Shown here in pieces: positions 4,339 to 33,070 of a stretch of DNA of 39,963 nt. The stretch comes from Thermodesulfobacteriota bacterium (GTDB lineage: Bacteria > Desulfobacterota > Desulfobulbia > Desulfobulbales > JBFMBH01): positions 1 through 39,963 of the forward strand of contig JBFMBH010000021.1 of the NCBI GenBank assembly GCA_040755095.1, given 5' to 3'. How positions within the stretch are numbered: position 1 is the first letter of the stretch; every line of letters starts with the position of its first letter. A program made the position numbers and the translations under genes. The notes beneath the pieces are model-generated. The model did not search any database. It saw only the letters and a list, made by a program, of their open reading frames with translations, and had not been told where the DNA came from.

Positions 4339-4401
4339 GGCTGCTCGTGGATCTGCCGGATATAACAGCCAGATTGCACTGAAGGCATGGAGGAGGTTGC
4401 T

Positions 4402-4671
4402 ATGGCCGTAAGTGAGGCGCAAATAGAACGGGCGATAGCACTCTCAAAGGCTTACGGAGTATCCCGTTTGATTCTTTTTGGTAGCGCTGCGGAATCCCCT
4501 GAAACCGCACAGGATCTCGATCTTGCTTGCGACGGCATTGCTGGGTGGCGAATCTTCGAGCTTGGCGCACAAATCGAGGACGAATTGGGAACCTCCGTTG
4601 ACCTTATTCCCTTGCGACCGTCGACACCCTTCACAAGGATTGTGGAGCGGAAAGGGAAAGTGCTGATATGA
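4402..4671 (+). CDS. mntA: MntA-like minimal nucleotidyltransferase antitoxin
   Basis: The 89-aa product is a minimal nucleotidyltransferase: FGSAAESPETAQDLDLA gives the Gly27-Ser28 pair and the acidic pair Asp38-x-Asp40, and a third acidic residue is Asp67 in SVDLIPL. In HepT/MntA systems this enzyme transfers AMP to a tyrosine of the HEPN toxin and so inactivates it. I chose the ATG at 4402 over the in-frame ATG at 4387 because GGAGG sits just before 4402. The stop overlaps the start of the HEPN gene by ATGA. The gene and its partner look less GC-rich than the flanking cooC and ileS, which suggests horizontal acquisition. Confidence 0.85.
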   Translation: MAVSEAQIERAIALSKAYGVSRLILFGSAAESPETAQDLDLACDGIAGWRIFELGAQIEDELGTSVDLIPLRPSTPFTRIVERKGKVLI

Positions 4672-5150
4672 CTTGGGCGGACTTGGCCGAGGAAATCGCC
4701 ATTGAGCTCGAGTTGATGCAAGTGACGATTCAGGAGCTTTCGGACTTGGCTGAGGACGCCGGCGACAGAGAGCCGTCGATTCGGGACAGAACCGCGGCAG
4801 CGGCATTTCTTGCTCAGTTCTACAACGGTGTCGAGAACATCCTGAAACGTACCAGTCGATTCCATGGCGTCCCATTGCCGACAGGAGAAACATGGCACGC
4901 AGAGCTTCTCAAGCGGTTTTCGGCACCTGGTTATGCCAACCTGCCGATTCTTCTGGATCACGAGTTGCTCATAAAGCTGTCAGGGTACAGAAAGTTCAGA
5001 CATGTGGTTCATCACGGCTACGGATTTCAGATCGAGTGGTCGCGGTTGCACGAAGGCATCCTTCATGTTTCATGGGTATTCCAGAAGCTGAAAGACGCCG
5101 CAGAGCGGTTCCTGAAGGAGGCCAGGCCACAAGTCGAGGAGAGGATGTAG
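4668..5150 (+). CDS. hepT: HepT-like HEPN ribonuclease toxin
   Basis: The 160-aa, mostly helical protein carries the HEPN RNase motif R-x4-H-x-Y exactly (Arg111, His116, Tyr118, within RHVVHHGY). Arg and His form the metal-independent RNase site. The tyrosine is the position that MntA AMPylates in characterised HepT/MntA pairs. It is coupled to the nucleotidyltransferase by an ATGA overlap, the expected two-gene toxin-antitoxin layout with the antitoxin first. It is somewhat longer than the compact HepT proteins, with an extra N-terminal helix pair. Assignment as toxin is by family and context; RNA targets cannot be read from the sequence. Confidence 0.85.
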   Translation: MTWADLAEEIAIELELMQVTIQELSDLAEDAGDREPSIRDRTAAAAFLAQFYNGVENILKRTSRFHGVPLPTGETWHAELLKRFSAPGYANLPILLDHELLIKLSGYRKFRHVVHHGYGFQIEWSRLHEGILHVSWVFQKLKDAAERFLKEARPQVEERM

Positions 5151-6097: not shown

Positions 6098-8728
6098 ATG
6101 AAGAACGGCATCCGCACCCCTCTTCTTCTTGTGCTCTTCGTTGTCATCCAATCCTGCCTCACCACCAGTGCCCTGGCCGGTGTCGAGCCATCCCACACCT
6201 GGGTTGGCGAGGTGACGGCTGAGCGTCCTACGGCGCTTGCCCTGGATGCCGCGGAGAACCTCTACGTGGTGGAGACCGGCCGCAACCGGCTCCAAATCGT
6301 CGGGACCGATGGCAGGACAATTGGCCTGCTCACCGGGCTCGACCGCCCGGTGAGCGTCGCTGTGGACAGCCGGGGGCGGATCTACGTCGGGAACAATGGC
6401 CGGGGAAATGTCGAGGTCTACAACCGGGATCTCCAGCTGCTCCACAAGCTCGGGGCGGGCGATCAGGAGCTTGCCCGGCCCGCGGGTCTGGGAGTGACCA
6501 CGGAGGGCAAGGTGTATGTGGCTGACGGACTCGCCAACACCGTCAAGGTGTATGACGCGGGCGGAGCCCAGCTCTTTTCATTCGGGGAGCCGGGCGGCGG
6601 GGAGGGGCAGCTGCACACCCCCACGGCGCTGGCGATCGACGAGGGCAATGGCCGGGTGCTGGTGGCGGATCTGCCGGTACGGACTTCGAGGAAGGGCTCC
6701 TATGAAGCCGCGCGGGTGCAGGCTTTCGATCTGGCGGGCCGTTTTCTGCAGGTCGTCGGCGACTTCGGGGTGGGTGAAGGCAGCCTCATCAAGCCCTTGG
6801 GGCTCGCCGTGGACGGCGCCGGCAGGATCCTGGTGGCTGACGCGTATGAAAACGTGGTTCAGGTGTTCGATCATGCCGGAGTCCACCAGGAGACCCTCTA
6901 CGACGGGGAGCGGCCGTTGCGCACCGCACTGGGCGTGGCCTACGGTCTGGAAACGGAACGGCTTTTCGTGGCCTCGCACAAGGGCACGGGGGTTGCTGTG
7001 TTCGGCCTGCCCGAGACCCATACGATCGCGGTGGAGACGGCAGCGGGAGGCACGATCTCACCGTTCGGGCTGCTCGAGGTGTTCCACGGGATGAGCCAGG
7101 AATTCAGGATCTCGCCTGATCCTGGCTACGCGATCTCGCAGGTGCTGGTGGACAGCGTCGGGGTGGGGCCGGTGGCCAGCTATACCCTGACCAAAGTCGT
7201 CGCGGATCACACCATCGCTGCCCGGTTCGAGCCGAAGATCTACGCAATCCAGGCTGCGGCCACCGGCGGCGGGACGATCTCGCCGGCCGGGTCGGTTGAG
7301 ATCGGCCATGGCGGGCGGGTGGTCTTTTCGGTGCAGGCCGCGGACGACCACCATGTGGCGCAAGTGCTGGTGGACGGTGCGGATGTGGGACCGGTCTCGG
7401 AATACGAATTTTCCGCGGTCGACAGAGGACACACCATCGAGGCGGTCTTTGCGCCGAGCCTCGGCCACACGATTGCCGCCACGGCCGGAGTGCACGGCAC
7501 GATCAGCCCGACGGGTGCGGTGCGTGTGCCCTACGGCGAAGAACAGGCCTTCACCATCAGCCCTGATACAGGGTACACGATCGCTGCCGTGTTGGTGGAC
7601 GGCAGGGCCGTCGGTGCTCCAGCGTCCTATACGTTTCCTTTCGTGACCGCCGATCATACGATTGAGGCGACTTTTGCCGAGAGTCCCGTGGAGTATCGGC
7701 TTGCGGTGGAGATCGTGGGCCGCGGCAGCGTCCAGGGCGCTCTCGCCGGTATCGCGTGCCCCGAGGACTGCAGCGAGGAGTACCGGGCAGGCACCGAGGT
7801 AAGCCTGGTGGCCGTGCCGGCGGACGGCTGGCGGCTTGTCGGCTGGGGCGAGGCCTGCGCAGGCGACGCTGCCATGTGTACCGTGACCATGGAGGGTACA
7901 AGAGCAGTGACCGCTCGCTTCCTGCCGGCAACGGCTATCGAAGATTTCGAGCGTGGCGACCTTGCGAAGCTCCCGTGGCTGACCGGCGGGACAGGGGCCT
8001 GGGCGATCGAAGAGGAGGTCACCCGCGGCGGCCGTTATGCGGTGGCGGCGCCCCTGGATCTCGGAGCTGGGGAATCAAGCTTCCTGGAGGTGACCCTCGA
8101 GGTGGAGAGCGCGGGCGAGCTCTCCTTCTGGCACCGGGAATCGACGGCCGCAGACCAGGATTACCTGCGACTCCTGATCGACGGCGAGGAGCACGGGAAC
8201 TGGTCCGGGGAGGACTCCTGGAGCCGGGCGGATGTCGCCGTCGCACCGGGCCGCCACACCCTGCGCTGGGAGTATGTGCGAGGCGCGGGCGCGGCGGCAG
8301 GTGCCAACACGGTATGGCTGGATGATATCGCCTTCCCGGCCTTCGCTCACCCGGTGTACCCGGTGGCAGACCTGAAGGCCAACTGCCAGGACGGGCCGCT
8401 GGTCCTGCGTCGCGGCGAGCGACTGCAGGTCTCGGCAGGGCTCGCCGCCGGCGGACGAGCCGGCGAGAACGCCGACTGGTTTGTGGAGCTTCGGGCGCAC
8501 CGGGGCTGGTATGCCTATAACCTCTTCAAAGGGAGCTGGCGCCAAGGGTTCGGACTCTCCTGGCTGGGTGCGCTATCGGTCGAGACGGCGGCCCACGACA
8601 CCATCCTCGAGACAGCGGGTCTGCCCCCCGGCCTGTATGGCTTCTATTTCCTGGTGGATACCACCATGAACGGGAAGCTCGACCAGCCGTTCTCTTACGA
8701 CTGCGTGTGGGTCAGCATTGAGGAGTAG
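6098..8728 (+). CDS. Secreted NHL-repeat beta-propeller protein with bacterial repeat modules
   Basis: This 876-aa exported protein has a signal peptide (MKNGIRTPLLLVLFVV ... ALA, about residues 1-27). Residues about 30-307 hold six NHL-type blades (for example LARPAGLGVTTEGKVYVADG). Three tandem repeats of about 72 aa follow (307-528), each with GTISP, a PDxGYxI segment, VLVDG and ADHTI. A fourth, diverged repeat has paired cysteines (531-611). Next come a beta-sandwich like carbohydrate-binding or MAM modules (613-750, starting DFERGDL) and an unrecognised C-terminal domain. The start is the ATG at 6098, directly before the signal peptide; its ribosome site is weak. It probably acts at the cell surface as a binding scaffold. 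It precedes the giant cytochrome gene by 180 bp and may be co-transcribed with it. No catalytic residues are recognised. Confidence 0.82.
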   Translation: MKNGIRTPLLLVLFVVIQSCLTTSALAGVEPSHTWVGEVTAERPTALALDAAENLYVVETGRNRLQIVGTDGRTIGLLTGLDRPVSVAVDSRGRIYVGNNGRGNVEVYNRDLQLLHKLGAGDQELARPAGLGVTTEGKVYVADGLANTVKVYDAGGAQLFSFGEPGGGEGQLHTPTALAIDEGNGRVLVADLPVRTSRKGSYEAARVQAFDLAGRFLQVVGDFGVGEGSLIKPLGLAVDGAGRILVADAYENVVQVFDHAGVHQETLYDGERPLRTALGVAYGLETERLFVASHKGTGVAVFGLPETHTIAVETAAGGTISPFGLLEVFHGMSQEFRISPDPGYAISQVLVDSVGVGPVASYTLTKVVADHTIAARFEPKIYAIQAAATGGGTISPAGSVEIGHGGRVVFSVQAADDHHVAQVLVDGADVGPVSEYEFSAVDRGHTIEAVFAPSLGHTIAATAGVHGTISPTGAVRVPYGEEQAFTISPDTGYTIAAVLVDGRAVGAPASYTFPFVTADHTIEATFAESPVEYRLAVEIVGRGSVQGALAGIACPEDCSEEYRAGTEVSLVAVPADGWRLVGWGEACAGDAAMCTVTMEGTRAVTARFLPATAIEDFERGDLAKLPWLTGGTGAWAIEEEVTRGGRYAVAAPLDLGAGESSFLEVTLEVESAGELSFWHRESTAADQDYLRLLIDGEEHGNWSGEDSWSRADVAVAPGRHTLRWEYVRGAGAAAGANTVWLDDIAFPAFAHPVYPVADLKANCQDGPLVLRRGERLQVSAGLAAGGRAGENADWFVELRAHRGWYAYNLFKGSWRQGFGLSWLGALSVETAAHDTILETAGLPPGLYGFYFLVDTTMNGKLDQPFSYDCVWVSIEE

Positions 8729-8908
8729 CCACGGGATCGCAGAAGGTCAGGTTGAAAGGTTTCGGCCATCAGGCGTCCCGGGCTGTGGAGCCCGGAGCGG
8801 CTCAACCGGAATGGTGTCATCCGGCCACCGTGCTGCCGGTCGGGTCTCTTGTCGGGTGAGCGGAGCGAACCCCGGCGAGCGCGATTTCGCCAAGGGAGGA
8901 AGGCGATC

Positions 8909-11900
8909 ATGAAGAGCCTGGGGAGGATGTGGGGGTGGGGGTGGGGGTGGGCTCTTTGCGCTTCCTTCTTCCTTGTCCATCCGGCCGCCGCCGACCAGAA
9001 CGGTGTCGATTACCCGCATTGCAGTCTGACCAATGCCACCTGCGACGCCTGTCACTACATGGTCACCGACAATCCGCCACCGGCCTGGATTGCAGCCGAT
9101 GCGCCTTACGATGCCCTCTGCGAGGTCTGCCACAACGATCTCCTGCGGACGACGCTTGAAACCCATTCGAGTGCGACCACCAGCGACCAGTATGGCACCT
9201 GGTCGATCGAGTGCCGGACCTGTCACTGGCCACACCATCAGAAGCAGCTCCGCACATACGGAGAGGCGAGCTACGTGCTCACCGGGACGGCGAGCGGGGT
9301 GACCTCCTCGCCGCCGGATGACCAGCACCAGTACGGATTCGGCACCCTGACTATGACCGGCGCCGGCTGGGCGAACGATCAATGGAACGGCTACATCCTC
9401 GTCCCCAATACGAGCCAGCTTTCCTACAGCTACCGAATCACCAGCACCAGCGCCGACACCCTGACCGTGGAGCCGGCTATTGATCTTGCCAAGGTCTCGA
9501 TCGGCGATCCCTTTGCCGTCTACTACGGCAAGCTCATCAAGAGCACCCTGCCGACACCGAACAGCGGCAACAAGACGGTGCGCTTCTTCCGGAAGACGGG
9601 CGCCAACTCCTATGCCGACGGCGATACGGTCTACGACGGCGTCTGTGAGGTCTGCCACACCCGCACCAGCCACTACCGCAACGATGGCTCCGCGACCGAG
9701 CAGAACCACGAAAATCTGGGCGGCAAGTCCGGCACCAATTGCATCGACTGCCATTCCCACACCAACGGCTTCAGCCACGGCGGGGCGGGTGGCACGGGCT
9801 GCGAGGCGTGCCACGGCCATGACCTGGCCTTCGAATTCAGCCCCGGGCAATACAGCCAGGGCCGGGGGACGTTCCAGAGTCACTCCACCCATACGGAAGA
9901 TGACGCCGACGACCTCAAGGGGCCTCACCTCGGCTGTGACGGCTGCCACGACACCAACTCCTTTCCGAGCTTCAAGTCGGGAGTCGACGGGAACGGCGAT
10001 GGAAGCTTCAGTCTCGCAGAAACCGACGTCTGCGACCCCTGCCATAGCCCGGGCGGCACCTATGACGGGGTCAGCGACGGGGTCTTCGGTGCCAAGGAGA
10101 TCTGGGCCAGCGGCGCCTATGTCGCAACCGACGACAGCACCCTCAGGAGCGGCAAAGACAGGTGGTGCGCCTCCTGCCACGATGAGGCACCCGCGATCAT
10201 CGGGGGGGTATCCGCGCCCAACGTTACCGGCGACGAGGACGGCACGTACACCTACGGCACCGGCTGGGGCTACTACAAGACGGGCCACGGCCTGACTGAT
10301 GCGTCAACCTATCCCTCCAGCGGAGGCCTGGTCTACGGCGCCGGCAAGGGATGCTCCGACTGCCATGACTATGCAGGCGCGCACATTGATGGGGATGCCC
10401 GAACCTATAGCGCAGGAAGCGACAACTACCAGGCCGGCTACCGTCTGAAGAGCATCGACGGCGCCGAGCCCATGTATATTCCCCGGCCCCAGAACGTCGA
10501 CAACCATGATCCGGGCCATTACCGGCTCTGCTTCTCCTGCCATGACTCCAACCGGTACCTCTTGAAAACCCCCAATCCGGTAACCACCAGCTTCCGGGAC
10601 GACCTCGATATCGGCCCCTGGGATGGCGGCACAGCGCCGATCAATATTCATGAATACCATCTTTCATTCAACACCCTCGATTTCGATTCCGACTGGGACG
10701 GCTCCCTGGACAGCGAAATCGCCTGCGTCAACTGCCATAACGTGCACGGCTCCACCCAGCTCTCCATGATTCGCGACGGCGAGCTGGTGGGCCGGGAGCC
10801 CGGCATGCAGATGTACTACGACAGCGTCCTCATCGCCCCGACTTACCAAGCGGGCTCGGTGCCAGGCCCGGCCACCACCCTCGACAACAGCACCGGCACC
10901 CTCTTCTGGGGGCCAAGCCCGGGCAATCTCTGCCAGCACTGCCACGGCGGCGACTGGGTGAAGTACTACCGTACCCCGCCCGCCCCCCCGGCGGCGCCAT
11001 CCCTCGCCTGGACCAGCGAAGCGGATTATCTTGCCGACGGCGTCCATCCGGACAGCGGCCAGGGCGGCGATTACTTCACCTTCCGCATCGAGTACACCGA
11101 TGCCAACTCCCAGCCGCCGCGGCTCATTCAGGTCTGGGTGGATGCCAACGACAACGGCACTTATGAGGCGAGCGAGAAGCACGATCTCCACGAGGTCGAT
11201 TCCGGCGATGTCGATGTTTCGGACGGCAAGCTCTTCCGGACCATTCTGGGCCTGGATCTGGCCGGCGACGGCACGATCAGCTACCGTTTCCACGCCTCGG
11301 ACGGCAAGTTCGACGCCACGAACGGCGCCGCCACAGGCAATCCCCTCGACGACACCGCCAATACTGTCGCCCTGACCAATAATGCCCCGGTCCTCTCCTG
11401 GACCGGCGAGGACGGCTATATTGCCGACGGCGTCAACCCCGGCGCGGCGGTGGCCGGCTCGACCTTCACCTTCCGGGTCAAGTACGCCGATGCGGACAAT
11501 GACCCGCCCGCCACCATGCAGGTCTGGGTGGACCGGGACGACGACGGCACCGCGGCGGGCGACGAGGCCACCGAGCTCGTCAGCCTGGAGGCGGCGGACA
11601 GCGATGGCGATTACACCGACGGCAAGCTCTATACCAAGGACGTTCCTATTGCCGCAGCGGGTGACAATTCTTTGCAATACCGCTTCGTTGCCTCGGACGG
11701 CACCGATTCGGCCACCGGCATACCGACCGGCAGCCGGAGCCTCACCGTCACCACCGCCAATGCGGCACCGCTTCTCTCCTGGACCGGGGAGAACGGCTAT
11801 ATCCGGGACGGCGTGGAGCCGGATGCCGGCGCTCCTGGCGCCACCTTCACCTTCCGGGTGCGCTATCTCGATGCCGACAACAATCCTCCTTCTGCCGTCC

Positions 11901-14900
11901 AGCTCTTGATCGATAAAAACGATGACGGCGATTATCTCGATAGCGGCGAGCTGCTCGACCTGACTGCTGCCGACAGCGACAGCGACTATAGCGACGGCCG
12001 GGTCTATTCCGGGGCCGTGGTTCTTGCAAGCGCCGGGGACGGGATCCTCGACTACCGCTTCCAGGCCGCAGACGGCGCGGCCCAGGCCACCGGTGATCCG
12101 ACCGAGAGCAATATGGTCACCGTGCTCATCGGCGCCAAGAAGGTCTCCTGCCCGGGAGTGGGCGACTACGACTACACCTCCATCCAGGCGGCCATCGACA
12201 ATTCCTTCGACGGCGACCTCATCCTCGTGGCAGACGGCACCTGCACGGAGACCATCACGGTCAACAACAAGGACCTCACCATCGTGTCGGTGAACGGCGC
12301 CGGCGCCACCACCATCGACGGCAACAGCGCCGCAACCGTGGTGACCCTTGCCAACGGCGCTGACACCATCCTGGACGGCTTCACCATTACCGGCGGCAAC
12401 CGGGCCTCGGGATACGGCTCCGGGATCGTGATCAGCAGCTCTTCCCCGGTGATCAGGAACTCGATCGTCATCGGCAATTATTCCCAGAGGGCCACGGCCG
12501 TCTATGCTTCCGGCAGCGGCTCCTTCGTCACGATCTCCGGCTGCACGGTGGACAGCAACACCTCCTCCCTGGAAGGCCCGGGCATTTATCTGGCGAGCGG
12601 CGTCTCCGCCGCGATCGTCGATACCACCTTCAGCAACAACTCCACGCCCAACGGCCACGGCGGCGGCCTCTACATGACCACCGGCGCCAATGCCTCTTTG
12701 ACCGTCTCGGGCTCCACCTTCAGCAACAACGATGTTTCCACCTTCGGCGGCGGCCTCTATGTGGCGGGCTCCGCCGGCACGGTGACGGTGAGCATCGAGG
12801 ACACCGTCTTCGACAGCGGCAACAGCGCCCAGCGGGGCGGGGCCATGTATATCGCGGACAGCGGCGCCACCCTGTCGCTCGCCATCTCCGACTCTACCGT
12901 CTCCGGCAATTCCGCCAGCCTGGAAGGAGGCGCTCTCTTTGTGAGCGGTGCCGATTCCGTCGTCATCGAGGGCTCCACCATTGCCGGCAATTCGTCGACG
13001 GACGCCGGCGGCCTCAAGGTCAGCAGCGCCGGCTCTCTGACGGTGACCGATACGAGCATCCGCGACAATACGGCTTCAGGCTCCGTCGGCGGCGGCATGG
13101 TGCTCTCCGGCGCCACCGCTCTCTTCGACGGATGCGCGATCACGGGAAACATGGCCGGAGGGCGAGGCGGCGGCGGTTATGTTTACACCGCCTCGCCCAC
13201 CTTCAGGAACTGCATCGTCTCCGGCAACAAGGCCACCGGCTTCGAGGGCGGCGGTCTTGTCTTCGACGGTGCGGGTGTTGCGGCGAGCATCGTCAACTCG
13301 ACCTTCAGCGGCAACAAGGCAGGGACCACCGGCGGAGCCATCGGCAATCGGAACAGCGCTTCGATCACGGTGAAGAATTCCATCCTTTACGGCGACGGCG
13401 GCGGTGTCGGCAGCTCGGAGATTTTCGGAGCCGTTTCCGCCTCGTACTCGCTCATCGGTCAGTATGGCTACGGCGGCGGCAACAATCTCAATACCAAGCC
13501 ATACTTCATCGATCCGCAGTCCTACGAGTCGGCACCCACCTCGAGCGGCGACTATCATGTGCAGCTGAGCTCGCCGGCTATCGATGCGGGTACCTCCGAC
13601 GGCGCTCCTGGCGACGATTTCGACGGCGACCTCCGGCCGCTCGGGGCCGGCATCGACATGGGGGCCGACGAAAAGGTCACGAAGGCCAACAACGCCCCGA
13701 CGCTCGCCTGGACCGGCGAGACCGGTTTCGCGGCCGACGGCGTCGATCCGGACCTGGGCACCTCCGGCGGCAGCTACGTATTCCGGGTCAGCTACGCCGA
13801 TGCCGACGACGATGCCCCCTCCTCTGTCCAGGTCTGGATCGACAGGAACGATGACGGCGATTTCCTGGATGGCGGCGAGAAGATCGACCTCGCCCCGGTG
13901 GACGGCGGCGATACGGTTTTCACCGACGGTCGGCTCTACACCGCAACCGTGCCCCTTGCGTATTCCGGTGACGGGGTCCTGCAATATCGTTTTTATGCCG
14001 CGGACGGCACTACAGCCGCTACCGGCAGTCCGACCTCCGGCAAGAGCGTCGTGGTCAACACCGTTCCGACCCTGACCTGGCTGGGCAGCGGCGACTATGC
14101 CTCCGACGGCGTCCATCCGGACAGCGGCGCCAGTGGCACGACCTTCGATTTCCGAGCCCGCTATGCCGATGCCGATAACAACGGCCCGACCACCATCCAG
14201 ATATGGGTGGATGCCAACGACGACGGCGATTACCTCGATGCCGGCGAAAAACTGACCATGACCCAGCTTGATGCCGGCGATACCGTGTATTCCGACGGCA
14301 AGGATTATACAAAGACCGTCAGCCTGGGCTATGCCGGCGATGGTGAGCTGACTTACCGGTTCTATGCCTCGGACGGCTCCGCGGCCACCGGCACCCCCGC
14401 CTCCACGGGCGGTACGGTCACGGTCACCAACTCGGTGCCGGTCCTCTCCTGGCTCGGCAACGGCGGCTACATCAGCGACGGGGTCGACCCGAACGGCGGC
14501 TTGAGCGGGGCGAACAGCTTCGAATTCAGAATCCGCTACACCGATGGCGACAACCAGGCCCCGTCCTCTGTCCAGGTCTGGATCGACGAAAACGACAGCG
14601 GCTCCTACGAGCCTGGGGAAAAACATGATATGACCGCCCTGGTGCCGGGCGACACCACCTTCTCGGACGGCAAGGATTACACCTATACCGCCACCGGCCT
14701 TACCCGGGTGAGCGACGACGATCTGGGCTACCGCTTCGCGGCCAGCGACGGCATTGCCGCGGCCACCGGCACCCCGGCCACCGTTGACCGGCAGGTGGGG
14801 ATCTTTGCCGCCAACCAGGCCCCGGATCTGGACTGGACCGGGGAGGCGGGCTACACCGCGGACGGCGTCGCTCCGGATTCGGGGGTGGAGGGCGACACAT

Positions 14901-16726
14901 TCACTTTCCGGGTCAAGTACACCGATCCGGAAAACACCGCACCCACCCTGATCCAGGTCTGGGTGGATCTCGACGACGATGCGGTTGAGGACCCGGCCGA
15001 GCTGACCGCTCTCGATCCGGCGGATGCCGGCGATACCACCTATGACGACGGCAAGCTTTATAGCGCCGCCATCGTCATCTCTTCGGTGACCAACCCGACA
15101 ACCACATACAAATTCAAAGCCGAGGATGGAGATGCTTCTCCCCTGGCTGCCACCGGCAACGCCACGGCCGAGCAGACAGTAATGGTGACCGGCGCGATCA
15201 CCGTCTGCCCGGCAGGGCCTCCGGCCTGTGACTACAACAGCATCAACAACGCCATCGGCGCTGTTTCGTCCGGGGCCTTCATCCTGGTCAAGGACGGCAC
15301 CTACAGCGAATATGTCAACTATTCCGGCAAGAACATCGCCATCGTTTCGCAAAATGGCGCCGGCTCCACCATCCTCCAGGGCGGGACCTCAGTCAATGCC
15401 TGGGATCCGGGGCTCCCGGTCGTCACCTTCAATAGCGGCGAGACGGCGAGCGCCGTCCTCGACGGCTTCACCATCGACAACCAGGAAGAACGCTCCGGCA
15501 CCAGGGGCATCGTGATATCCGGGGCCACGCCGACCATCAAGAACTGCGTGATCAAAGGCAACCGCACCCCCGGCTCTGCGTACGGGGCCGGCGTCTATGT
15601 CAACAACTCGGCTCCGACCTTTGAAAACTGTACGATCAAGCAGAATTACACCATCAATCGAGCAGGGGCCGGTATGTACATCACCGGTGCGGCCGGCGGC
15701 GCTACCCTGACCGGCTGCACCATCGGCGGCGCGAGCGCCGCCGACCAGAACTTCAGCGAGAACGGCCAGGGAGGCGGCATCTATTTCTCGGGGTCGACCA
15801 CCGGGCTGCTGACCCTCGACCATACCGCCATCACATACAACAAGAGCGCTTCGGAAGGCGCCGGACTCTATCTGAGCGGCATCACCCGGACGACGGTGAT
15901 TGCCAACAGCTCTTCGATCAGCAACAACACCCAGACCGGCGACGGATACGGGGGGGGCATCTATGCCAGCAGTGCGCCAATGTCGATATCCGACAGCACC
16001 ATCAGCAACAACTCGACCGGGGTGAACCGGGGAGGCGGCGGCCTTTACCTGGCAAGCACCTCGGCGACCATAACCGGCTCCACCATCAATTCCAACACCA
16101 CCGGCGGCTATGGCGGGGGAGGGATCCATATCGGCGGCACCACCCCTTCTCTGGTCCTCTCCAGGAGCAATATCCGAGGCAACAGCGCCCTCAGCGGCGG
16201 GGACGGCGGCGGCATCAAGGTCGCCTCGGGAACAGCGACCATTACCAACTGCATCATTGCCGGCAACCGGGTCTCGGACGTTTGGAACTATGGCGGCGGC
16301 ATCCAGAGCAGCGGCACCCTGTATCTCGACTTCAGCACCGTGGCCGACAACTACGCCCATTACGGCGGCGGCCTGGACATCGCCGGCGGCACGGCGAAGG
16401 CGTACAACAGCATCGTCTGGGGCAACGCTGCCTCGGGCGGCAACATCGAGTACCGGGGCGCCGTGACCTTCCACCTGACCGAGACCGCAGGCGATACCTC
16501 CTTCGTCAGCCGGAGCACGGCGAGCTCGTCCACCGCCACCACTGGCGGCGATTACCACCTGCAGGCCAACTCCAACTGCATCGATTCCGGCGACGGTTTG
16601 ATCCATGACGATACCCCCGGCGCACCGGCGGTCGACTTGGATGGCAACGTCAGGCCGACCGATATTGCCGGCAAGGGTGACGGTACCGACGATTACGACA
16701 AGGGGGCTTACGAATATGTGCCTTGA
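8909..16726 (+). CDS. Giant secreted 13-haem cytochrome c with calcium-loop repeats and two beta-helices
   Basis: The 2605-aa protein starts with a signal peptide ending near HPAAA; the ATG at 8909 has GGAGG upstream and is preferred to the in-frame 8849. Thirteen CxxCH sites begin at residues 45, 71, 102, 246, 278, 298, 343, 375, 420, 482, 541, 606 and 675. Each can bind c-type haem covalently. Residues about 697-1072 hold three repeats of about 125 aa (LSWTGExGYxxDGVxPD, then an EF-hand-like DxNDDGDYLDxGE loop). A right-handed beta-helix follows (about 1077-1590, Pmp/pectate-lyase-like GGG and SGN turns), then four more repeats (1597-2090) and a second beta-helix to the end. Both helices close with the DxDGxxRP motif seen in choice-of-anchor Q proteins. 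It is probably extracellular or outer-surface, moving electrons while attached to a long adhesin-like stalk. The redox partner is unknown. Confidence 0.9.
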   Translation: MKSLGRMWGWGWGWALCASFFLVHPAAADQNGVDYPHCSLTNATCDACHYMVTDNPPPAWIAADAPYDALCEVCHNDLLRTTLETHSSATTSDQYGTWSIECRTCHWPHHQKQLRTYGEASYVLTGTASGVTSSPPDDQHQYGFGTLTMTGAGWANDQWNGYILVPNTSQLSYSYRITSTSADTLTVEPAIDLAKVSIGDPFAVYYGKLIKSTLPTPNSGNKTVRFFRKTGANSYADGDTVYDGVCEVCHTRTSHYRNDGSATEQNHENLGGKSGTNCIDCHSHTNGFSHGGAGGTGCEACHGHDLAFEFSPGQYSQGRGTFQSHSTHTEDDADDLKGPHLGCDGCHDTNSFPSFKSGVDGNGDGSFSLAETDVCDPCHSPGGTYDGVSDGVFGAKEIWASGAYVATDDSTLRSGKDRWCASCHDEAPAIIGGVSAPNVTGDEDGTYTYGTGWGYYKTGHGLTDASTYPSSGGLVYGAGKGCSDCHDYAGAHIDGDARTYSAGSDNYQAGYRLKSIDGAEPMYIPRPQNVDNHDPGHYRLCFSCHDSNRYLLKTPNPVTTSFRDDLDIGPWDGGTAPINIHEYHLSFNTLDFDSDWDGSLDSEIACVNCHNVHGSTQLSMIRDGELVGREPGMQMYYDSVLIAPTYQAGSVPGPATTLDNSTGTLFWGPSPGNLCQHCHGGDWVKYYRTPPAPPAAPSLAWTSEADYLADGVHPDSGQGGDYFTFRIEYTDANSQPPRLIQVWVDANDNGTYEASEKHDLHEVDSGDVDVSDGKLFRTILGLDLAGDGTISYRFHASDGKFDATNGAATGNPLDDTANTVALTNNAPVLSWTGEDGYIADGVNPGAAVAGSTFTFRVKYADADNDPPATMQVWVDRDDDGTAAGDEATELVSLEAADSDGDYTDGKLYTKDVPIAAAGDNSLQYRFVASDGTDSATGIPTGSRSLTVTTANAAPLLSWTGENGYIRDGVEPDAGAPGATFTFRVRYLDADNNPPSAVQLLIDKNDDGDYLDSGELLDLTAADSDSDYSDGRVYSGAVVLASAGDGILDYRFQAADGAAQATGDPTESNMVTVLIGAKKVSCPGVGDYDYTSIQAAIDNSFDGDLILVADGTCTETITVNNKDLTIVSVNGAGATTIDGNSAATVVTLANGADTILDGFTITGGNRASGYGSGIVISSSSPVIRNSIVIGNYSQRATAVYASGSGSFVTISGCTVDSNTSSLEGPGIYLASGVSAAIVDTTFSNNSTPNGHGGGLYMTTGANASLTVSGSTFSNNDVSTFGGGLYVAGSAGTVTVSIEDTVFDSGNSAQRGGAMYIADSGATLSLAISDSTVSGNSASLEGGALFVSGADSVVIEGSTIAGNSSTDAGGLKVSSAGSLTVTDTSIRDNTASGSVGGGMVLSGATALFDGCAITGNMAGGRGGGGYVYTASPTFRNCIVSGNKATGFEGGGLVFDGAGVAASIVNSTFSGNKAGTTGGAIGNRNSASITVKNSILYGDGGGVGSSEIFGAVSASYSLIGQYGYGGGNNLNTKPYFIDPQSYESAPTSSGDYHVQLSSPAIDAGTSDGAPGDDFDGDLRPLGAGIDMGADEKVTKANNAPTLAWTGETGFAADGVDPDLGTSGGSYVFRVSYADADDDAPSSVQVWIDRNDDGDFLDGGEKIDLAPVDGGDTVFTDGRLYTATVPLAYSGDGVLQYRFYAADGTTAATGSPTSGKSVVVNTVPTLTWLGSGDYASDGVHPDSGASGTTFDFRARYADADNNGPTTIQIWVDANDDGDYLDAGEKLTMTQLDAGDTVYSDGKDYTKTVSLGYAGDGELTYRFYASDGSAATGTPASTGGTVTVTNSVPVLSWLGNGGYISDGVDPNGGLSGANSFEFRIRYTDGDNQAPSSVQVWIDENDSGSYEPGEKHDMTALVPGDTTFSDGKDYTYTATGLTRVSDDDLGYRFAASDGIAAATGTPATVDRQVGIFAANQAPDLDWTGEAGYTADGVAPDSGVEGDTFTFRVKYTDPENTAPTLIQVWVDLDDDAVEDPAELTALDPADAGDTTYDDGKLYSAAIVISSVTNPTTTYKFKAEDGDASPLAATGNATAEQTVMVTGAITVCPAGPPACDYNSINNAIGAVSSGAFILVKDGTYSEYVNYSGKNIAIVSQNGAGSTILQGGTSVNAWDPGLPVVTFNSGETASAVLDGFTIDNQEERSGTRGIVISGATPTIKNCVIKGNRTPGSAYGAGVYVNNSAPTFENCTIKQNYTINRAGAGMYITGAAGGATLTGCTIGGASAADQNFSENGQGGGIYFSGSTTGLLTLDHTAITYNKSASEGAGLYLSGITRTTVIANSSSISNNTQTGDGYGGGIYASSAPMSISDSTISNNSTGVNRGGGGLYLASTSATITGSTINSNTTGGYGGGGIHIGGTTPSLVLSRSNIRGNSALSGGDGGGIKVASGTATITNCIIAGNRVSDVWNYGGGIQSSGTLYLDFSTVADNYAHYGGGLDIAGGTAKAYNSIVWGNAASGGNIEYRGAVTFHLTETAGDTSFVSRSTASSSTATTGGDYHLQANSNCIDSGDGLIHDDTPGAPAVDLDGNVRPTDIAGKGDGTDDYDKGAYEYVP
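8930..8951 (+). repeat. (TGGGGG)n tract inside the cytochrome signal peptide, G-quadruplex-capable
   Basis: Three G5 runs and one G3 run are separated by single T residues, 21 bases after the start codon of the giant cytochrome gene. They encode WGWGWGW in the signal peptide. The 6-base period keeps the frame when whole units change, but slippage inside a G run would frameshift the gene. The mRNA could fold into a G-quadruplex next to the translation start. Confidence 0.85.
10999..12127 (+). repeat. Coding tandem repeats 1-3 of the giant cytochrome
   Basis: Three protein repeats with a DNA period of about 380-390 bp start near 11004, 11393 and 11773 (LAWTSE, LSWTGE, LSWTGE). Each carries one acidic calcium-like loop (DANDNGTYEASE, DRDDDGTAAGDE, DKNDDGDYLDSGE) and a late YRFxASDG strand. 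Confidence 0.85.
13690..15180 (+). repeat. Coding tandem repeats 4-7 of the giant cytochrome
   Basis: Four further units of the same 125-aa repeat start near 13702, 14070, 14443 and 14827 and separate the two beta-helices. Acidic loops are DRNDDGDFLDGGE, DANDDGDYLDAGE, DENDSGSYEPGE and the degenerate DLDDDAVEDPAE. The period is about 370-385 bp. Confidence 0.85.
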
Positions 16727-17604: not shown

Positions 17605-19317
17605 TCAGTAGGTGATCCAGTCGCTGGCCCGCACCAGCTGCGGGGGGGAGCCGGCGGCCAGCCGAACGATGTAGCAGCCCTTGGACGCATAGCGCTGGCC
17701 GGGTCCGAAGCTCAACCGGGGGTAGACCGCGATGGTGGCGGTCTGATCCACCATCATGTCGATGCCTTCCAGGAAATAGTCCCGGTAGAAGTCGCTGCGC
17801 ATGCAGCCCACGGCCTCCGCCAGGATCCCGCCCAGGAAATACATCCTGGCCTGGATGACCGGGCTCATGGGGGGAATCTTGCGCACCTTGAGCCAGTTCG
17901 CCACCGCCATGGCCTTGCGGCCCCGATCCGCCGGCAGCTCGTAGGGATAGGTGATGAGAAGAGCGGGCCACACCGCTGGGGGGACGGCGGAGAAGTCCTC
18001 TCCAGCCAGGCCGCCGGACACCAGCACCTGCACCGGGGATCCGGCCGCGCCTGCGAGGACGCCCAGGCCGGCCAGGTCATCCCGGCCCAGCCAGTAGAGC
18101 ACCTGCTGCGGCCGCTCCTGCCGGCTGAGCAGGCGCTCCAGGGCCGGGGCCGCCGGCTCGGCGGCACCGAGGATCACCCTCTCCGGCGCCGGCCGGCCGA
18201 CCTCCTGCCACGCCGCCTCGAAGCCAGCGGCGGTCCGCTCCCCGTCTGCCCCCTGCCGGTAGATCTGGACCACCTGCACCCCCTCGCCCTGGTCCCGGAT
18301 GAGATGCCGCGCCGCGGCCTCGCCCTCCTGGTAGAAGCCCTTGGAAAAGTACAGGGTGTACCAGTCCGTCTTCGTGATCTTCGGCCGCTCGGTCAGGGGA
18401 AAGAGGCACGGGATTCTCCTCCGCTCGCAAAACTCGTGGATCGGTGCCCAGTCCCCGGCCGCCATGCCGCCCAGGAGGGCAAAGACCGGCCGGGCCTCAT
18501 CGTAGGCCGCCAGCTGCTGCGGCCAGGTGGCCGGCTCGCCGGAAAGCTCCCAGACGTCGAGGCTATAGAGGCGGAAGGAGGCGTTGTGCTCGCTCATGAA
18601 GAAGGGGCCCTTATCGGCCAGCTCGCCCTGATGCCGGGACTGGCGGTTGTGGTCCGCCACCAGGGCCTGGAGCACCGCCAGCATCGCCTCCCGCTCCGCC
18701 GGCGGCACGCCCTCCGTGACCACGGTGGCGAAGCGCAGGGTGGTGTCATCCACCCCGGGCGCCGGCTCGGAGGAGAGGGTCTTGAGGTACTCCAGGAGGT
18801 AGCCCATATCCCGCTGGCCGAGCAGATACCGGGGCATGACCGGATTGAGCTCCCGGCCGGTTGGGTGGGCGCCCAGCTCGATGGCCTCGGCCAGGGTCTC
18901 CAGGGTGTAGGCCGGCCGATGATCGGCGACCCGGTACTGGGGCGGCAGAGCCTGGCGGCCGCTCACCCGCGCCGCTTCGTCCTCGGGCTGCCGCCAGGCG
19001 CCGGTCCGGCGCCACGGCCGGAAGAGGTCCAGGCCGTTGGTGCGCGGGGTGATGACCGTGCCTTCCAGGGAGCCCAGACCGGAGCGCTGATGGCAATGGA
19101 CGCAGGTGAACATCCGGCCATCCACCGGGATGTCTTCCTGAACCACCGCCATGACCGGCTCGCCGCTGGGCAGCACCCCCTGCCGGTAGATCATCTCGCC
19201 GTATCTGGCGGCCATCTCGGCGGTGACGCTCCGCAAGGGCGCCGCCTCGTCGGCCCAGGAGGCCACCTGGGTAGCGATGGCCAGGAGCACGCCCACAAGG
19301 ATCGCGATGCGCTTCAT
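17605..19317 (-). CDS. Cytochrome c / type I periplasmic substrate-binding protein fusion
   Basis: The 570-aa product has a signal peptide (MKRIAILVGVLLAIATQVASWA). An N-terminal class I cytochrome c domain follows, with a single haem site CVHCH (Cys72-His76) and a later MPRYL methionine as possible axial ligand. From about residue 205 comes a periplasmic binding-protein fold of the branched-chain amino acid receptor type (FFMSEHNASF, RPVFALLGGMAAGD, CLFPLTERP, VQVVQIYRQGADG). No permease or ABC ATPase genes are adjacent, so uptake is unlikely; redox-linked sensing or binding in the periplasm is an inference. It lies 39 bp downstream of the SCO gene, a pairing I recall from other genomes. The start at 19317 has AAAGGA upstream. 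Confidence 0.87.
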   Translation of the reverse strand: MKRIAILVGVLLAIATQVASWADEAAPLRSVTAEMAARYGEMIYRQGVLPSGEPVMAVVQEDIPVDGRMFTCVHCHQRSGLGSLEGTVITPRTNGLDLFRPWRRTGAWRQPEDEAARVSGRQALPPQYRVADHRPAYTLETLAEAIELGAHPTGRELNPVMPRYLLGQRDMGYLLEYLKTLSSEPAPGVDDTTLRFATVVTEGVPPAEREAMLAVLQALVADHNRQSRHQGELADKGPFFMSEHNASFRLYSLDVWELSGEPATWPQQLAAYDEARPVFALLGGMAAGDWAPIHEFCERRRIPCLFPLTERPKITKTDWYTLYFSKGFYQEGEAAARHLIRDQGEGVQVVQIYRQGADGERTAAGFEAAWQEVGRPAPERVILGAAEPAAPALERLLSRQERPQQVLYWLGRDDLAGLGVLAGAAGSPVQVLVSGGLAGEDFSAVPPAVWPALLITYPYELPADRGRKAMAVANWLKVRKIPPMSPVIQARMYFLGGILAEAVGCMRSDFYRDYFLEGIDMMVDQTATIAVYPRLSFGPGQRYASKGCYIVRLAAGSPPQLVRASDWITY

Positions 19318-19356
19318 GTCGAGTCCTTTCCTGGATGAGGCCGGGTGCCCTGCCGG

Positions 19357-19941
19357 TCACTGGCCCATGAGGGCCTGGTACTCCTTCATAAGCTCGGCCG
19401 TGCTGATGAGGCCATGGATCCGAACCCAGCCCTCATCCCCTGGCTTACGGAGAAAGGTGATCGGGTAGTGGCTCATCTTGTTGATGACATAGGCATCGAA
19501 GGCCCGCATCACCTTGTCGATGTCCTCCCGGCTGCCGGTGAAAAAGTCCCAGCCTGGCTTGGCGCCGTAACGGCCCAGGTATTCGGCCATGACCTCCGGG
19601 GTATCGTGCTCGGGATCGATGGAGATGCTGACCAGCCGCACCGCCTGGGCCCCGCCGTTGATCCTCCGCTGCATGTTGACGAAGCCGGCGGACAGCACGG
19701 GACAGATGGTGGTGCAGGTGCCGTAGATGAAATCGAGCAGCACCGGCTTGTCGGAGCTGAGGATGAAGTCCCGCAGGTTGACCCGGCGCCGGTCCTGGGT
19801 GATGAGCGTCACGTCCGGAATCGAGTACCGCTCCTCGCTGCGCTTGTAGCGCGCCTCTTGCGCCCCGTGCACAGACAACGGCGGCACCAGGATGGACAGC
19901 AGCAGGAATCCCCCCACGAGCCGCATCATCGTCGCTGGCAT
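19357..19941 (-). CDS. SCO1/SenC-family copper chaperone or thiol-redox protein
   Basis: This 194-aa thioredoxin-fold protein is anchored or exported by an N-terminal hydrophobic segment (about residues 6-26). It has the SCO copper site: GTCTTICP (Cys76, Cys80) and a downstream histidine, most likely His158 in SHYPITFL. SCO proteins deliver copper to, or reduce the cysteines of, cuproprotein sites outside the cytoplasm. The ATG at 19941 has AGGGAGG upstream and is preferred over the in-frame opening at 19998, which overlaps the protease gene. No cytochrome oxidase genes are nearby. The three cupredoxin proteins encoded upstream in the same cluster are the natural clients. Confidence 0.92.
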   Translation of the reverse strand: MPATMMRLVGGFLLLSILVPPLSVHGAQEARYKRSEERYSIPDVTLITQDRRRVNLRDFILSSDKPVLLDFIYGTCTTICPVLSAGFVNMQRRINGGAQAVRLVSISIDPEHDTPEVMAEYLGRYGAKPGWDFFTGSREDIDKVMRAFDAYVINKMSHYPITFLRKPGDEGWVRIHGLISTAELMKEYQALMGQ

Positions 19942-19961
19942 AGAAGCCTCCCTTGCTCTAT

Positions 19962-21776
19962 TTACTCGCCAACCAGGCGCACCCCGCTTTCCACCCATCC
20001 CTCGGCCCCGGCCACCATGACCGACACCGGACGCGCCCCCAGCTTGCCGGCCAGACCGGTCAGAGCCCGCTGCCAGCGGCCCCGGGCCGCATTCCAGCTC
20101 ATGGCCCGCTCCAGGGCGCGGCCGTTGTCCAGGAAGACCAGCAGCCGCAGGCCGGCCTCGTCCGCCCGCTCACTCTCGGCCAGCACCGCCAGCCGATCGG
20201 AGGCTGCCTCGTAGTCCGCCCGGAGCACCTCGATGGTGAGATCAAAGCCGTTGCAGTCCTGATCGATGCCATCCCGCCGGATCTCCGCGGCACCGGGGTG
20301 GACCGCCGCATCCCGATCGTCACAATCAAGGCTGGCGGGATGACCGTCCAGGTCCTGATCCGCTGGACGGGGCGCGCCGCCGGCCAAAAGATCATAGGCG
20401 GCGGCCACATCCAGGAGGCCGTAGCCATAGCCCTGATCCGGGCCTGGCGGGCCCAGGTCCTGGGCGGTCTTCAGCAGGATGGCCTCCAGCGTGGCCATGG
20501 CCAGGCTGGGCAGGGCGCTGCGCAGGAGGGCCAGGCCGCCGGCCAGGTGCGGGGCGGCAAAGGAGGTGCCATGGACCTCCACATAGGCGTCCGGGATGAG
20601 GCCGCCGAAGGTGAGGTCGGTGGTAAGAACGCCGGCCCCTGGCGCCACCAGCCGGGGCTGGATGGAGCTGCCACAGGCCGCTGGCCCCCGGCTGCTGGCC
20701 AGGTCCAGCACCAGATCCTGGTCCACGGCGCCCACGGCGGTGCTGCCGGGATTGTCCGCCGGGCTGCGGATGCTGCCGGCCAGGGGACCGTCGTTGCCGG
20801 CGGCAAAGACCACCGCGATATCCGCGGCCCGCAACGCCCGGATGTCCGGCTCGAATTCCATGCTGCATGGGCCAAAGGCGGCCGTCAACCCCCAGGAGTT
20901 GTTGACGATATCCGGCGCGTCATCAGTCTCGGCATCGCCATCCGGATCCAGCGTCCACTGGAAGGCAGCGTGGATGGCGCTCAGGAAGGCCAGGCCCGCG
21001 TTGTTGAAGATCTTGGCCGCCATCCACTGGGCGCCCGGCGCCATGCCGATGGCCTGGCCACTGGCATCGCCACCGGCGATGAGTCCCATGACCTGGGTGC
21101 CGTGGCCGATGAGGTCGCGGGGCAACGGGTTCTCACCGTAGGGGTCGAGCCAGCTGTTGGTCCCGCCTCGCCATCGGGCGGCCAGATCGGGGTGGAAGCG
21201 GTCGACGCCGCTGTCCAGGGTCGCCACCACCACCCCCTGGCCGAAGAAGCCCTGCTGCCACAGCCAGGGGGCGCCCACCGCCGCCAGGTTCCAGCCTGCG
21301 CCCCCCCCGGTGTCTGGAACCGGAGCCGGCGTCGGCGTCGGCAGGCTCTGGTCCAGACGCACGGCGCCAACCCCGGGCAGCTGCGCCAGGTCGTCCACCA
21401 TGGCCGCGGGAACCGCGGCGGCCAGGCTGTTGATGATCCACAGCCCGCGGGCTTCGGCCACCTTGCTGGCTGCCAGAAGGCGCCGTACCCCGGCCTGATC
21501 GGAAGCGGCCTTGTCGCGCAGCGCCTTGATGAGCCGAGCCCGGCGCCGGCGGCGGTCCTCCTGAACGTTGAACAGGGACAAGTCCACCTGGCCGGCCATG
21601 GTGACGATGACCGGCACCGTGGTGCCCGGCGCCACCCGGGCGATAGCTGCTGCCAGCGGCGGGTCGATCCGGGCCGCTGGCCGGCCGGCCAGGGCGGCCG
21701 GTGGCAGGAGCAGGCCGAAGGCCAGGGCGAAGAAGGCCAGCGGCGCTCCGGCAAAGGTGGCGCGGGAACGTTTCAT
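19962..21776 (-). CDS. Secreted subtilisin-family (S8) serine protease with MopE-like calcium motif
   Basis: The 604-aa preproprotein has a signal peptide ending near PPAALA (residue 30) and an inhibitor-like propeptide (about 36-145). The peptidase S8 domain contains the complete catalytic triad: Asp188 (TLDSG), His225 (GHGT) and Ser405 (GTSFAAP), with oxyanion Asn328 (AAGND). Residues 474-510 form a MopE-type metal-binding motif (DLDGH, DCDDRD, PGAAE, DGIDQDCNG) that usually binds calcium; MopE itself binds copper. It is probably a surface or periplasmic protease that matures the neighbouring secreted proteins; the substrate is inferred only from context. It is tightly packed between the lipoprotein gene (9 bp) and the SCO gene (20 bp), with AGGAGG before the ATG. 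Confidence 0.92.
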   Translation of the reverse strand: MKRSRATFAGAPLAFFALAFGLLLPPAALAGRPAARIDPPLAAAIARVAPGTTVPVIVTMAGQVDLSLFNVQEDRRRRRARLIKALRDKAASDQAGVRRLLAASKVAEARGLWIINSLAAAVPAAMVDDLAQLPGVGAVRLDQSLPTPTPAPVPDTGGGAGWNLAAVGAPWLWQQGFFGQGVVVATLDSGVDRFHPDLAARWRGGTNSWLDPYGENPLPRDLIGHGTQVMGLIAGGDASGQAIGMAPGAQWMAAKIFNNAGLAFLSAIHAAFQWTLDPDGDAETDDAPDIVNNSWGLTAAFGPCSMEFEPDIRALRAADIAVVFAAGNDGPLAGSIRSPADNPGSTAVGAVDQDLVLDLASSRGPAACGSSIQPRLVAPGAGVLTTDLTFGGLIPDAYVEVHGTSFAAPHLAGGLALLRSALPSLAMATLEAILLKTAQDLGPPGPDQGYGYGLLDVAAAYDLLAGGAPRPADQDLDGHPASLDCDDRDAAVHPGAAEIRRDGIDQDCNGFDLTIEVLRADYEAASDRLAVLAESERADEAGLRLLVFLDNGRALERAMSWNAARGRWQRALTGLAGKLGARPVSVMVAGAEGWVESGVRLVGE

Positions 21777-21785
21777 GCCGGCCTC

Positions 21786-22337
21786 CTACTCCACGGACAG
21801 ATGCTCCAGGCGGAAGTCGCCGATGACCACGGTGACCGGATCGCCTGCCTTGATCAGCCGGTACGGGTTCGAGAACATGACAAAGTAGACCCGATCGGCT
21901 TCCGGCTGGCCGCCGCGGGTGGTTTGCCGCAGGGGGCCCACCTTGGGGGAGCTGGGCACCCCGACCACGGTGCCCCGCTTCTCGTCGGTCAAGGAGGCGG
22001 TGAATTCGCGATCCAGAAGAGGGGCGGCCTTGTCCGGCTCGAGAACGCGGAACCGGAAATCGAGCACGTTGCCGGCCCCGGACAGCCGGAGGCTTTCGAT
22101 CTTCACCCCCCACCGGGCGGCCAGCCGGTCCTCCCAGCCTTCCTGGTCCGCCGCCAGGGCCGCCCCGGACGCCTGGCTGGCCACCAGCGGCGGCGCGGCC
22201 TGGTCCAGACTGGCGCTGCAGCCGGCAACCAGAAGGGCCGCCGCCCCCAGCCACCACAACGAGCCGGCCAGCAGCCTTCGCCACCGGCCGGTCCACTCTC
22301 CAAGAAGAAGCTCGATGACTCGGCTCTGTTGTCCCAC
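21786..22337 (-). CDS. Predicted lipoprotein of unknown function
   Basis: The 183-aa protein starts at a GTG (22337) with GAGGG nearby. After a short charged stretch it has a hydrophobic segment ending in a lipobox, LLVAGC, so it is probably acylated and membrane-anchored. The mature part (LDFRFRVLEPDKAAPLLDR, VGPLRQTTRGG, RVYFVMFSNP, VTVVIGDFRLEHLSVE) looks like a small beta-domain that I cannot name. It lies between the cupredoxin genes and the protease gene, 9 bp from the latter, and is presumably part of the same surface copper-protein system. Confidence 0.75.
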   Translation of the reverse strand: MGQQSRVIELLLGEWTGRWRRLLAGSLWWLGAAALLVAGCSASLDQAAPPLVASQASGAALAADQEGWEDRLAARWGVKIESLRLSGAGNVLDFRFRVLEPDKAAPLLDREFTASLTDEKRGTVVGVPSSPKVGPLRQTTRGGQPEADRVYFVMFSNPYRLIKAGDPVTVVIGDFRLEHLSVE

Positions 22338-22381
22338 GGCACCCTCGGATGGCCGCGCAGGCGGCCCGCAAAGACAACCCG

Positions 22382-22483
22382 CAGAATATCCAACAGGGCG
22401 GGACCGGCGATGGACGTTTCAGATCAGTTCTGCCGGTCCTTTTGGCGGTTGGACATTCCGTGCTCGATATTCGACATTCGGTC
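22382..22483. repeat. Intergenic heptamer-periodic repeat with inverted ends
   Basis: In the 191-bp gap between the lipoprotein and cupredoxin genes, 22449-22483 reads as five consecutive 7-mers: TTGGACA, TTCCGTG, CTCGATA, TTCGACA, TTCGGTC. About 55 bases away, 22382-22394 is an inverted relative of the first two units (11 of 13 bases match). It looks like a dispersed intergenic repeat; no function can be assigned. Confidence 0.5.
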
Positions 22484-22487
22484 GGGG

Positions 22488-22513
22488 CCTGGCCGCACCC
22501 TTGTGCGGCCAGG
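22488..22513 (-). terminator. GC-rich hairpin after the cupredoxin genes
   Basis: CCTGGCCGCA and TGCGGCCAGG form a perfect 10-bp stem with a 6-base loop, beginning 15 bases after the stop of the 22529-24811 gene. No U run follows, so it could be a weak or Rho-assisted terminator, or an mRNA 3'-end stabiliser that splits the cluster into two units. Confidence 0.5.
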
Positions 22514-22528
22514 CGTTTGGGTTTGGCG

Positions 22529-24811: not shown

Positions 24812-24835
24812 TCTGTCCTCCTTTTCGCAACCTCG

Positions 24836-26194: not shown

Positions 26195-26206
26195 GGCCGG
26201 GCCTCC

Positions 26207-27463: not shown

Positions 27464-27483
27464 ATGCTGCCTCCTTGGTCAGA

Positions 27484-27515
27484 GGCCGCCTGCCGCAGGG
27501 TGCCGGCAGGCGGCC
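27484..27515 (-). terminator. Intercistronic 12-bp perfect stem-loop
   Basis: GGCCGCCTGCCG (27484-27495) and CGGCAGGCGGCC (27504-27515) form a perfect 12-bp stem with an 8-base loop. It lies in the 68-bp gap between the giant SdrD-like gene and the first cupredoxin gene. No U run follows and the next ribosome site is just downstream. It is more likely an attenuator or RNA-processing and stability element, setting the ratio of the two products, than a full terminator. Confidence 0.6.
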
Positions 27516-27531
27516 GCGCTGGCTTGCCGTT

Positions 27532-32862: not shown

Positions 32863-33070
32863 GGCATCTCTCCTTTTCCAGGTGGTTGTTGCCGCGGCCC
32901 CCGGGGCGCATCCCAGGCACCACCTCCCCGCCATTGTGCTCGTCTGCCTTGGCACAGCACCTCGCCAACGGCCGGCCGCCTGGCCGGCCTGTCGACCCCC
33001 GTGCCGTGCCCGCACCGGTATCGCCTTGCCGCGAGATCCGTTCGCTGGACAAGGAACCGGTATCAAAGCT

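Follow-up and report, generated by a model that had tools for sequence, protein, structure and literature searches.

A recurrent giant multihaem cytochrome with a duplicated Ig-like/beta-helix stalk from a Desulfobulbales-type genome, a candidate electrical adhesin

The locus

The window, that is, the whole stretch of 39,963 nucleotides of contig JBFMBH010000021.1 that was analysed, belongs to a Desulfobulbales-type genome (G000) of 4.52 Mb, which is 99.8% complete and in which dsrA is present. The cable bacteria, too, belong to the order Desulfobulbales. Positions 8909-16726 of the plus strand form a single intact frame of 2605 codons without interruption, encoding a giant multihaem cytochrome of 2605 aa with an apo mass of about 265 kDa and a mature pI of about 4.2. 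The ribosome-binding site GGGAGGAAGG lies immediately 5' of the gene, and the protein starts with a Sec-type signal peptide without a lipobox (MKSLGRM...HPAAA-DQ, read from the sequence; 8909-8995, plus strand). The coordinates and length given in the initial annotation, as well as its 13 CxxCH motifs at residues 45-679, proved to be exact. The frame has the best codon-usage score in the window, being itself within the training set. The overlapping minus-strand ORFs (8747-10288, 10664-12658, 13076-15352 and 15389-16606) were dismissed as shadow frames of G+C-rich DNA because they contain no CxxCH and have poor codon scores.

The gene located 180 bp upstream on the same strand (6098-8728) encodes an NHL beta-propeller protein, which has InlB-type repeats and likewise starts with a signal peptide. 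Between this gene and a ParA-like gene, a nucleotidyltransferase/HepT-like (HepT/MNT) toxin-antitoxin pair is found at 4366-5150 (plus strand), about where other operons carry an OmcS-like gene. Downstream, a minus-strand cluster (17605-33066) codes for a periplasmic-binding-like protein, SCO1, a subtilase with a MopE Cu motif, a cadherin-like protein, two multicopper oxidases and a 1844-aa SdrD-like protein. With 944 aa, the flagellar hook protein FlgE encoded at 33500-36334 (minus strand) is about double its normal length, and its gene adjoins FlgD and a FliK frame of very high G+C content.

The haem core

The haem core comprises residues 30-696 (8996-10996, plus strand) and, as judged from the sequence and an alignment, combines 13 CxxCH motifs with 15 conserved non-motif histidines. 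The CxxCH motifs are located at residues 45, 71, 102, 246, 278, 298, 343, 375, 420, 482, 541, 606 and 675. A chance origin of these sites is ruled out, as only 0.0115 are expected from composition, the maximum in shuffled sequences was 1 (n=2000) and the remaining five frames contain none. We aligned the core with 32 sequences, whose identity to the window copy is 42-61%. CxxCH 1-12 are kept in practically all aligned rows covering them, and CxxCH 13 in 22 of 26 relatives. The non-motif histidines at positions 37, 86, 109, 255, 267, 284, 290, 304, 325, 328, 460, 492, 581, 584 and 613 are kept in at least 80%, so that their number would suffice to give each of the 13 haems bis-His ligation. Going by the 13 sites, the spare histidines and the Sec signal, the protein is a multihaem c-type cytochrome, which is predicted to bind haem at these positions.

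Between residues 45 and 679 there are about 49 residues per haem, a density that resembles wire cytochromes. Haems 3 and 4 are separated by a 144-residue gap, inside which lies a small non-haem beta subdomain (residues ~119-209; 9263-9535, plus strand). This subdomain is the sole well-predicted part of the AlphaFold core model, which was built without haems and is of low confidence (pLDDT 53.6, pTM 0.42). Two extra EF-like loops are located within the haem part, at residues 360 and 593. A PDB sequence search with the core, including the core profile, gave no credible match, and OmcS was not among the matches; a PDB fold search with the low-confidence model gave no match below E 0.001 and was given no weight. 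We also found no full-length homology of the window gene to OmcS (6ef8). The haem-12 motif CHNVHGSxxLAM resembles the CHRAHGS and CHNPH modules of OmcS and OmcE over 27-41 columns, of which the likeness to OmcS makes up a motif of 27; as this is short, the idea that the core is a distant OmcS or OmcE was rejected.

The stalk

The core is followed by a stalk in the order three Ig-like repeats, helix, four Ig-like repeats, helix, all encoded on the plus strand. Repeats 1-3 (residues 697-1080; 10997-12148), which were found by repeat analysis and carry Ca-type loops, are followed by a right-handed beta-helix that was recognised by Pfam and has a choice-of-anchor Q motif at its end (residues 1081-1592; 12149-13684). 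Repeats 4-7 (residues 1597-2096; 13697-15196; repeat analysis and AlphaFold) lead into the second right-handed beta-helix (residues 2099-2605; 15203-16723; Pfam, AlphaFold and PDB fold matches). The repeats are about 125 aa long and begin at residues 697, 827, 954, 1597, 1720, 1844 and 1972. The initial annotation had counted seven Ca-loop repeats; the seven repeats are there, but the Ca loops are slightly fewer, with five canonical ones (DxNDDG/DxDDDG-type), a variant in the sixth repeat (DENDSG) and a degenerate one in the seventh (DLDDDA). The two beta-helices that it had described are confirmed by the match to PF13229 Beta_helix (7e-36; 123.7 bits against a cut-off of 25.9), the AlphaFold model and the PDB fold matches. 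The model of residues 1844-2605 has a pLDDT of 82.4 and a pTM of 0.70, and the best PDB fold matches of the tail are a multi-modular xanthanase, KIR Ig domains, pectin methylesterase, tailspikes, AlgE4 and RbmB. Pfam also matched GEVED in the protein (2.6e-6).

Ig repeats 1-3 with helix 1 align with Ig repeats 5-7 with helix 2 at 36% identity over 925 columns, and the stalk is therefore the product of an internal duplication. The form before this duplication may be represented by shorter relatives (L080, L077, L079, L186 and L190), which are about 1500 aa long and have one unit of three Ig repeats and a helix. Based on domain sizes (seven Ig domains of ~4 nm each and two helices of ~10 nm each), the stalk could be 30-50 nm long. 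Sequence, fold prediction and conservation all support the combination of a haem part with a long adhesin-like stalk.

A recurrent family with exchangeable heads

The fusion had been called unusual in the initial annotation, which proposed a search for proteins with the same order of domains. The full architecture (the core with two helices and five or more Ig repeats) was found at at least 11 further loci, so that the protein belongs to a recurrent family, and cytochrome/beta-helix fusions of ANME archaea have been published (PMC9012536). Within the order, these loci are C5 of the same genome, two loci in G013 and one each in G024, G251, G035, G018 and G256; bins of other phyla contribute Nitrospirota L072, Gammaproteobacteria L081 and Myxococcota L084. 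The core profile matches 45 of the 258 genomes of the order (E <= 1e-30). In the core tree, the window copy pairs with RIFOXYD12_FULL_57_12 (100/99) and phyla are intermixed elsewhere, a pattern of sequence relatedness that hints at lateral transfer. The core is absent from PLSDB, and a plasmid origin was therefore dropped. On a 34-kb contig of a Nitrospirae bin (JACRQA010000104.1; L072 / L076), at least four core giants with different tails are arranged in tandem. At L149 (G029:C238), core and stalk are split over two frames, probably due to a frameshift or an assembly error.

The genome of the window codes for eight core-bearing giants, which have the haem core in common and differ in their tails. 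The window protein and C5 carry twin beta-helices, C33a a Kelch-type propeller, C25 a lectin-like LamG domain and C1b, which has 35 haems, bacterial Ig domains (Big_9). A 5814-aa giant (G000:C1, L145:55-17499, plus strand) has 33 haems and, behind them, a stretch of about 4100 residues in which Pfam matches nothing. C1a and C33b, with 26 and 25 haems, respectively, have no such tail, and the genes directly after them encode separate proteins of >2300 and 2733 aa that are rich in LamG, Ig and DUF2341. A protein that binds surfaces would be expected to have just such a constant core, which would carry electrons, combined with changing heads of largely sugar-binding type. The same genome also contains a 1901-aa frame with 59 CxxCH, or about one haem per 27 residues (G000:C17; L036:560-6265, minus strand).

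Linkage to NHL and wire-type cytochrome genes

An NHL gene is located directly upstream of all eight giants of the genome, in the same orientation, and the NHL family is also found immediately 5' of core cytochromes at many loci in other phyla. The order OmcS-like gene, NHL gene and giant recurs at nine loci in six genomes and four families: C5, C1b and the 5814-aa locus of the same genome, two loci in G013, one each in G251 and G239, one in G024 that is cut by the contig end and one in G256 with a short core cytochrome in between. By its sequence, the hexahaem neighbour at these nine loci, of which the window is not one, is an OmcS homologue with six CxxCH: its profile matches OmcS with an E value of 8.5e-18, columns 29-356 aligning with OmcS 9-357, and the motif CxxCHTMHNS is present in five of seven aligned copies and CxxCHTIHNS in one, the seventh being cut off there. 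At the loci of relatives in Gammaproteobacteria (L100), Geobacter (L140) and a Nitrospirae bin (L102), the nearby gene instead encodes a homologue of 7tfs (E 3e-24 to 4e-19), which is labelled 'Cytochrome c' and which we take to be the OmcE filament.

OmcS-like genes occur in 37 of the 45 core-bearing genomes of the order versus 36 of the 213 core-less ones (Fisher p 6e-17, uncorrected for kinship and cytochrome richness), with a profile that was built from linked members. The genome of the window has thirteen OmcS-like hexahaem genes, of which only about four are beside core giants. No OmcS-like gene lies within 8 kb of the window copy, no OmcE-type gene was found in its genome, and a search with PF11854, the only porin family searched, revealed no MtrB-type porin there. 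The full-architecture relatives L081, L084 and L148 are without NHL and OmcS-like neighbours.

Possible function

We cautiously favour the reading that the giant is a secreted, surface-exposed electrical adhesin, in which the core passes electrons and the exchangeable head binds a surface. The genes of its relatives adjoin genes for homologues of known conducting wires, and this points to a conductive component with adhesive properties. In such a protein, the partner of the haem core in electron exchange would be a filament of OmcS-like cytochromes or else a conduit in the outer membrane, and the Ca-binding Ig repeats would keep the stalk extended. The beta-helices, which have the fold of sugar-binding and tailspike proteins, could attach to polysaccharide, to a mineral or to a partner cell, and contact and electron flow would thereby come together at one spot. 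The NHL propeller might aid export, folding or docking of the giant, and the same core with Kelch, LamG lectin or bacterial Ig heads might be aimed at other surfaces. Whereas sequence features, conservation and gene order are observed directly, we infer each of these properties, namely haem binding, export, conduction, stiffening by Ca, surface binding and contact with an OmcS-like wire. The initially suggested protein that would both conduct electrons and reach or bind a surface gains support from the exchangeable heads of a common haem core and from the linkage to OmcS/OmcE-type genes, with electron transfer and binding as its predicted properties. We count against the electrical adhesin that the window copy has no OmcS-like gene within 8 kb, that some full-architecture relatives lack both the NHL and the OmcS-like neighbour, that the core model is too poor to trace a continuous haem chain and that a search of the genome with PF11854 found no MtrB-type porin.

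A narrower form of this explanation, which we consider doubtful, is that the giant is a nanowire accessory, which would serve OmcS-like filaments specifically as their tip, cap or base and would be made and exported along with these filaments and the NHL protein. The nine loci in four families, the OmcE-type neighbours in other phyla, the higher frequency of OmcS-like genes in core-bearing genomes and the likeness of the haem-12 motif to OmcS/OmcE modules all point in this direction. However, the window copy and several others have no adjoining wire gene, the co-occurrence may reflect kinship or general cytochrome richness and was scored with a profile made from linked members, and the motif likeness is short. 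It is likewise with reserve, and as a rather unlikely possibility, that we suggest a tip or receptor for OmcS/OmcE-type nanowires that would consist of a conserved haem plug with adhesin heads that can be exchanged and would share its export with an NHL propeller.

Still less probable, in our view, is a plain adhesin or matrix protein, whose haems would serve as an electron store (capacitor) or a local redox site and not as a conduit. The non-haem stalk makes up three quarters of the protein, a conduit partner is absent at the window locus and the low-confidence core model cannot show a haem chain; yet the haem spacing is like that of wire cytochromes, the haem sites and ligands of the core are strongly conserved and the giants are repeatedly linked to wire-type genes. 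That the beta-helices are catalytic and the protein is a carbohydrate-active enzyme tethered to a cytochrome is very improbable, for although the closest folds of the tail include pectin methylesterase, AlgE4 and a polysaccharide lyase, Pfam matched no catalytic family, just generic PF13229 and anchor-Q motifs, and paralogues have lectin-like or Kelch domains in place of the helices.

According to PMC12307469, it is still an open question what anchors cytochrome nanowires, what ends them and what aims them. The recurrent trio of OmcS-like cytochrome, NHL propeller and exchangeable-head cytochrome provides named, testable candidates for these roles. If the tip or receptor reading were true, the bacterium could select what it wires itself to, be it a surface, a mineral or a partner cell, and sulfur-cycling Desulfobulbales would gain a molecular means of choosing electrical partners.

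Comparison with known systems

A literature search of incomplete coverage found no earlier bacterial haem/beta-helix fusion and no prior description of a duplicated Ig/beta-helix cytochrome, of exchangeable heads or of the OmcS-like/NHL/giant trio. Cytochrome/beta-helix fusions are known in ANME archaea, and the giant is therefore no new category. ANME MHC type C is a large multihaem cytochrome fused to a right-handed, pectin-lyase-like beta-helix, for which recognition of the partner cell was proposed (Chadwick et al. 2022, PMC9012536). Compared by description only, both proteins unite a large multihaem cytochrome with such a helix. In the archaeal protein the helix is N-terminal, whereas in the giant it is C-terminal, duplicated and mixed with Ig repeats, and the large ANME proteins have 20-80 haems (PMC9012536) versus 13 in the window protein. 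OetF of syntrophic sulfate reducers, a cytochrome of a probable extracellular electron-transfer conduit (PMC10553843), is by its description also a cytochrome with adhesion-type domains, but these are fibronectin domains, it is part of the Oet conduit and a beta-helix is not mentioned.

NHL genes beside multihaem cytochrome genes, as at the giant loci, are described for UetHI (PMC10734462), DFE_0451/0463 (PMC9769857) and G. ferrihydriticus (PMC12016550); unlike the giant loci, the accessible portions of these papers mention no beta-helix-stalk cytochrome. The core of the giant itself has no overall homology to OmcS and shares with it the 27-column motif only. Two publications (PMC12977616, PMC13194489) describe for Geobacter OmcS a companion operon, osc, that takes part in folding, secretion and morphology. 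There, hexahaem genes of the OmcS type adjoin genes for helpers and for large cytochromes, an arrangement comparable to that of the OmcS-like, NHL and giant genes at the nine loci described here.
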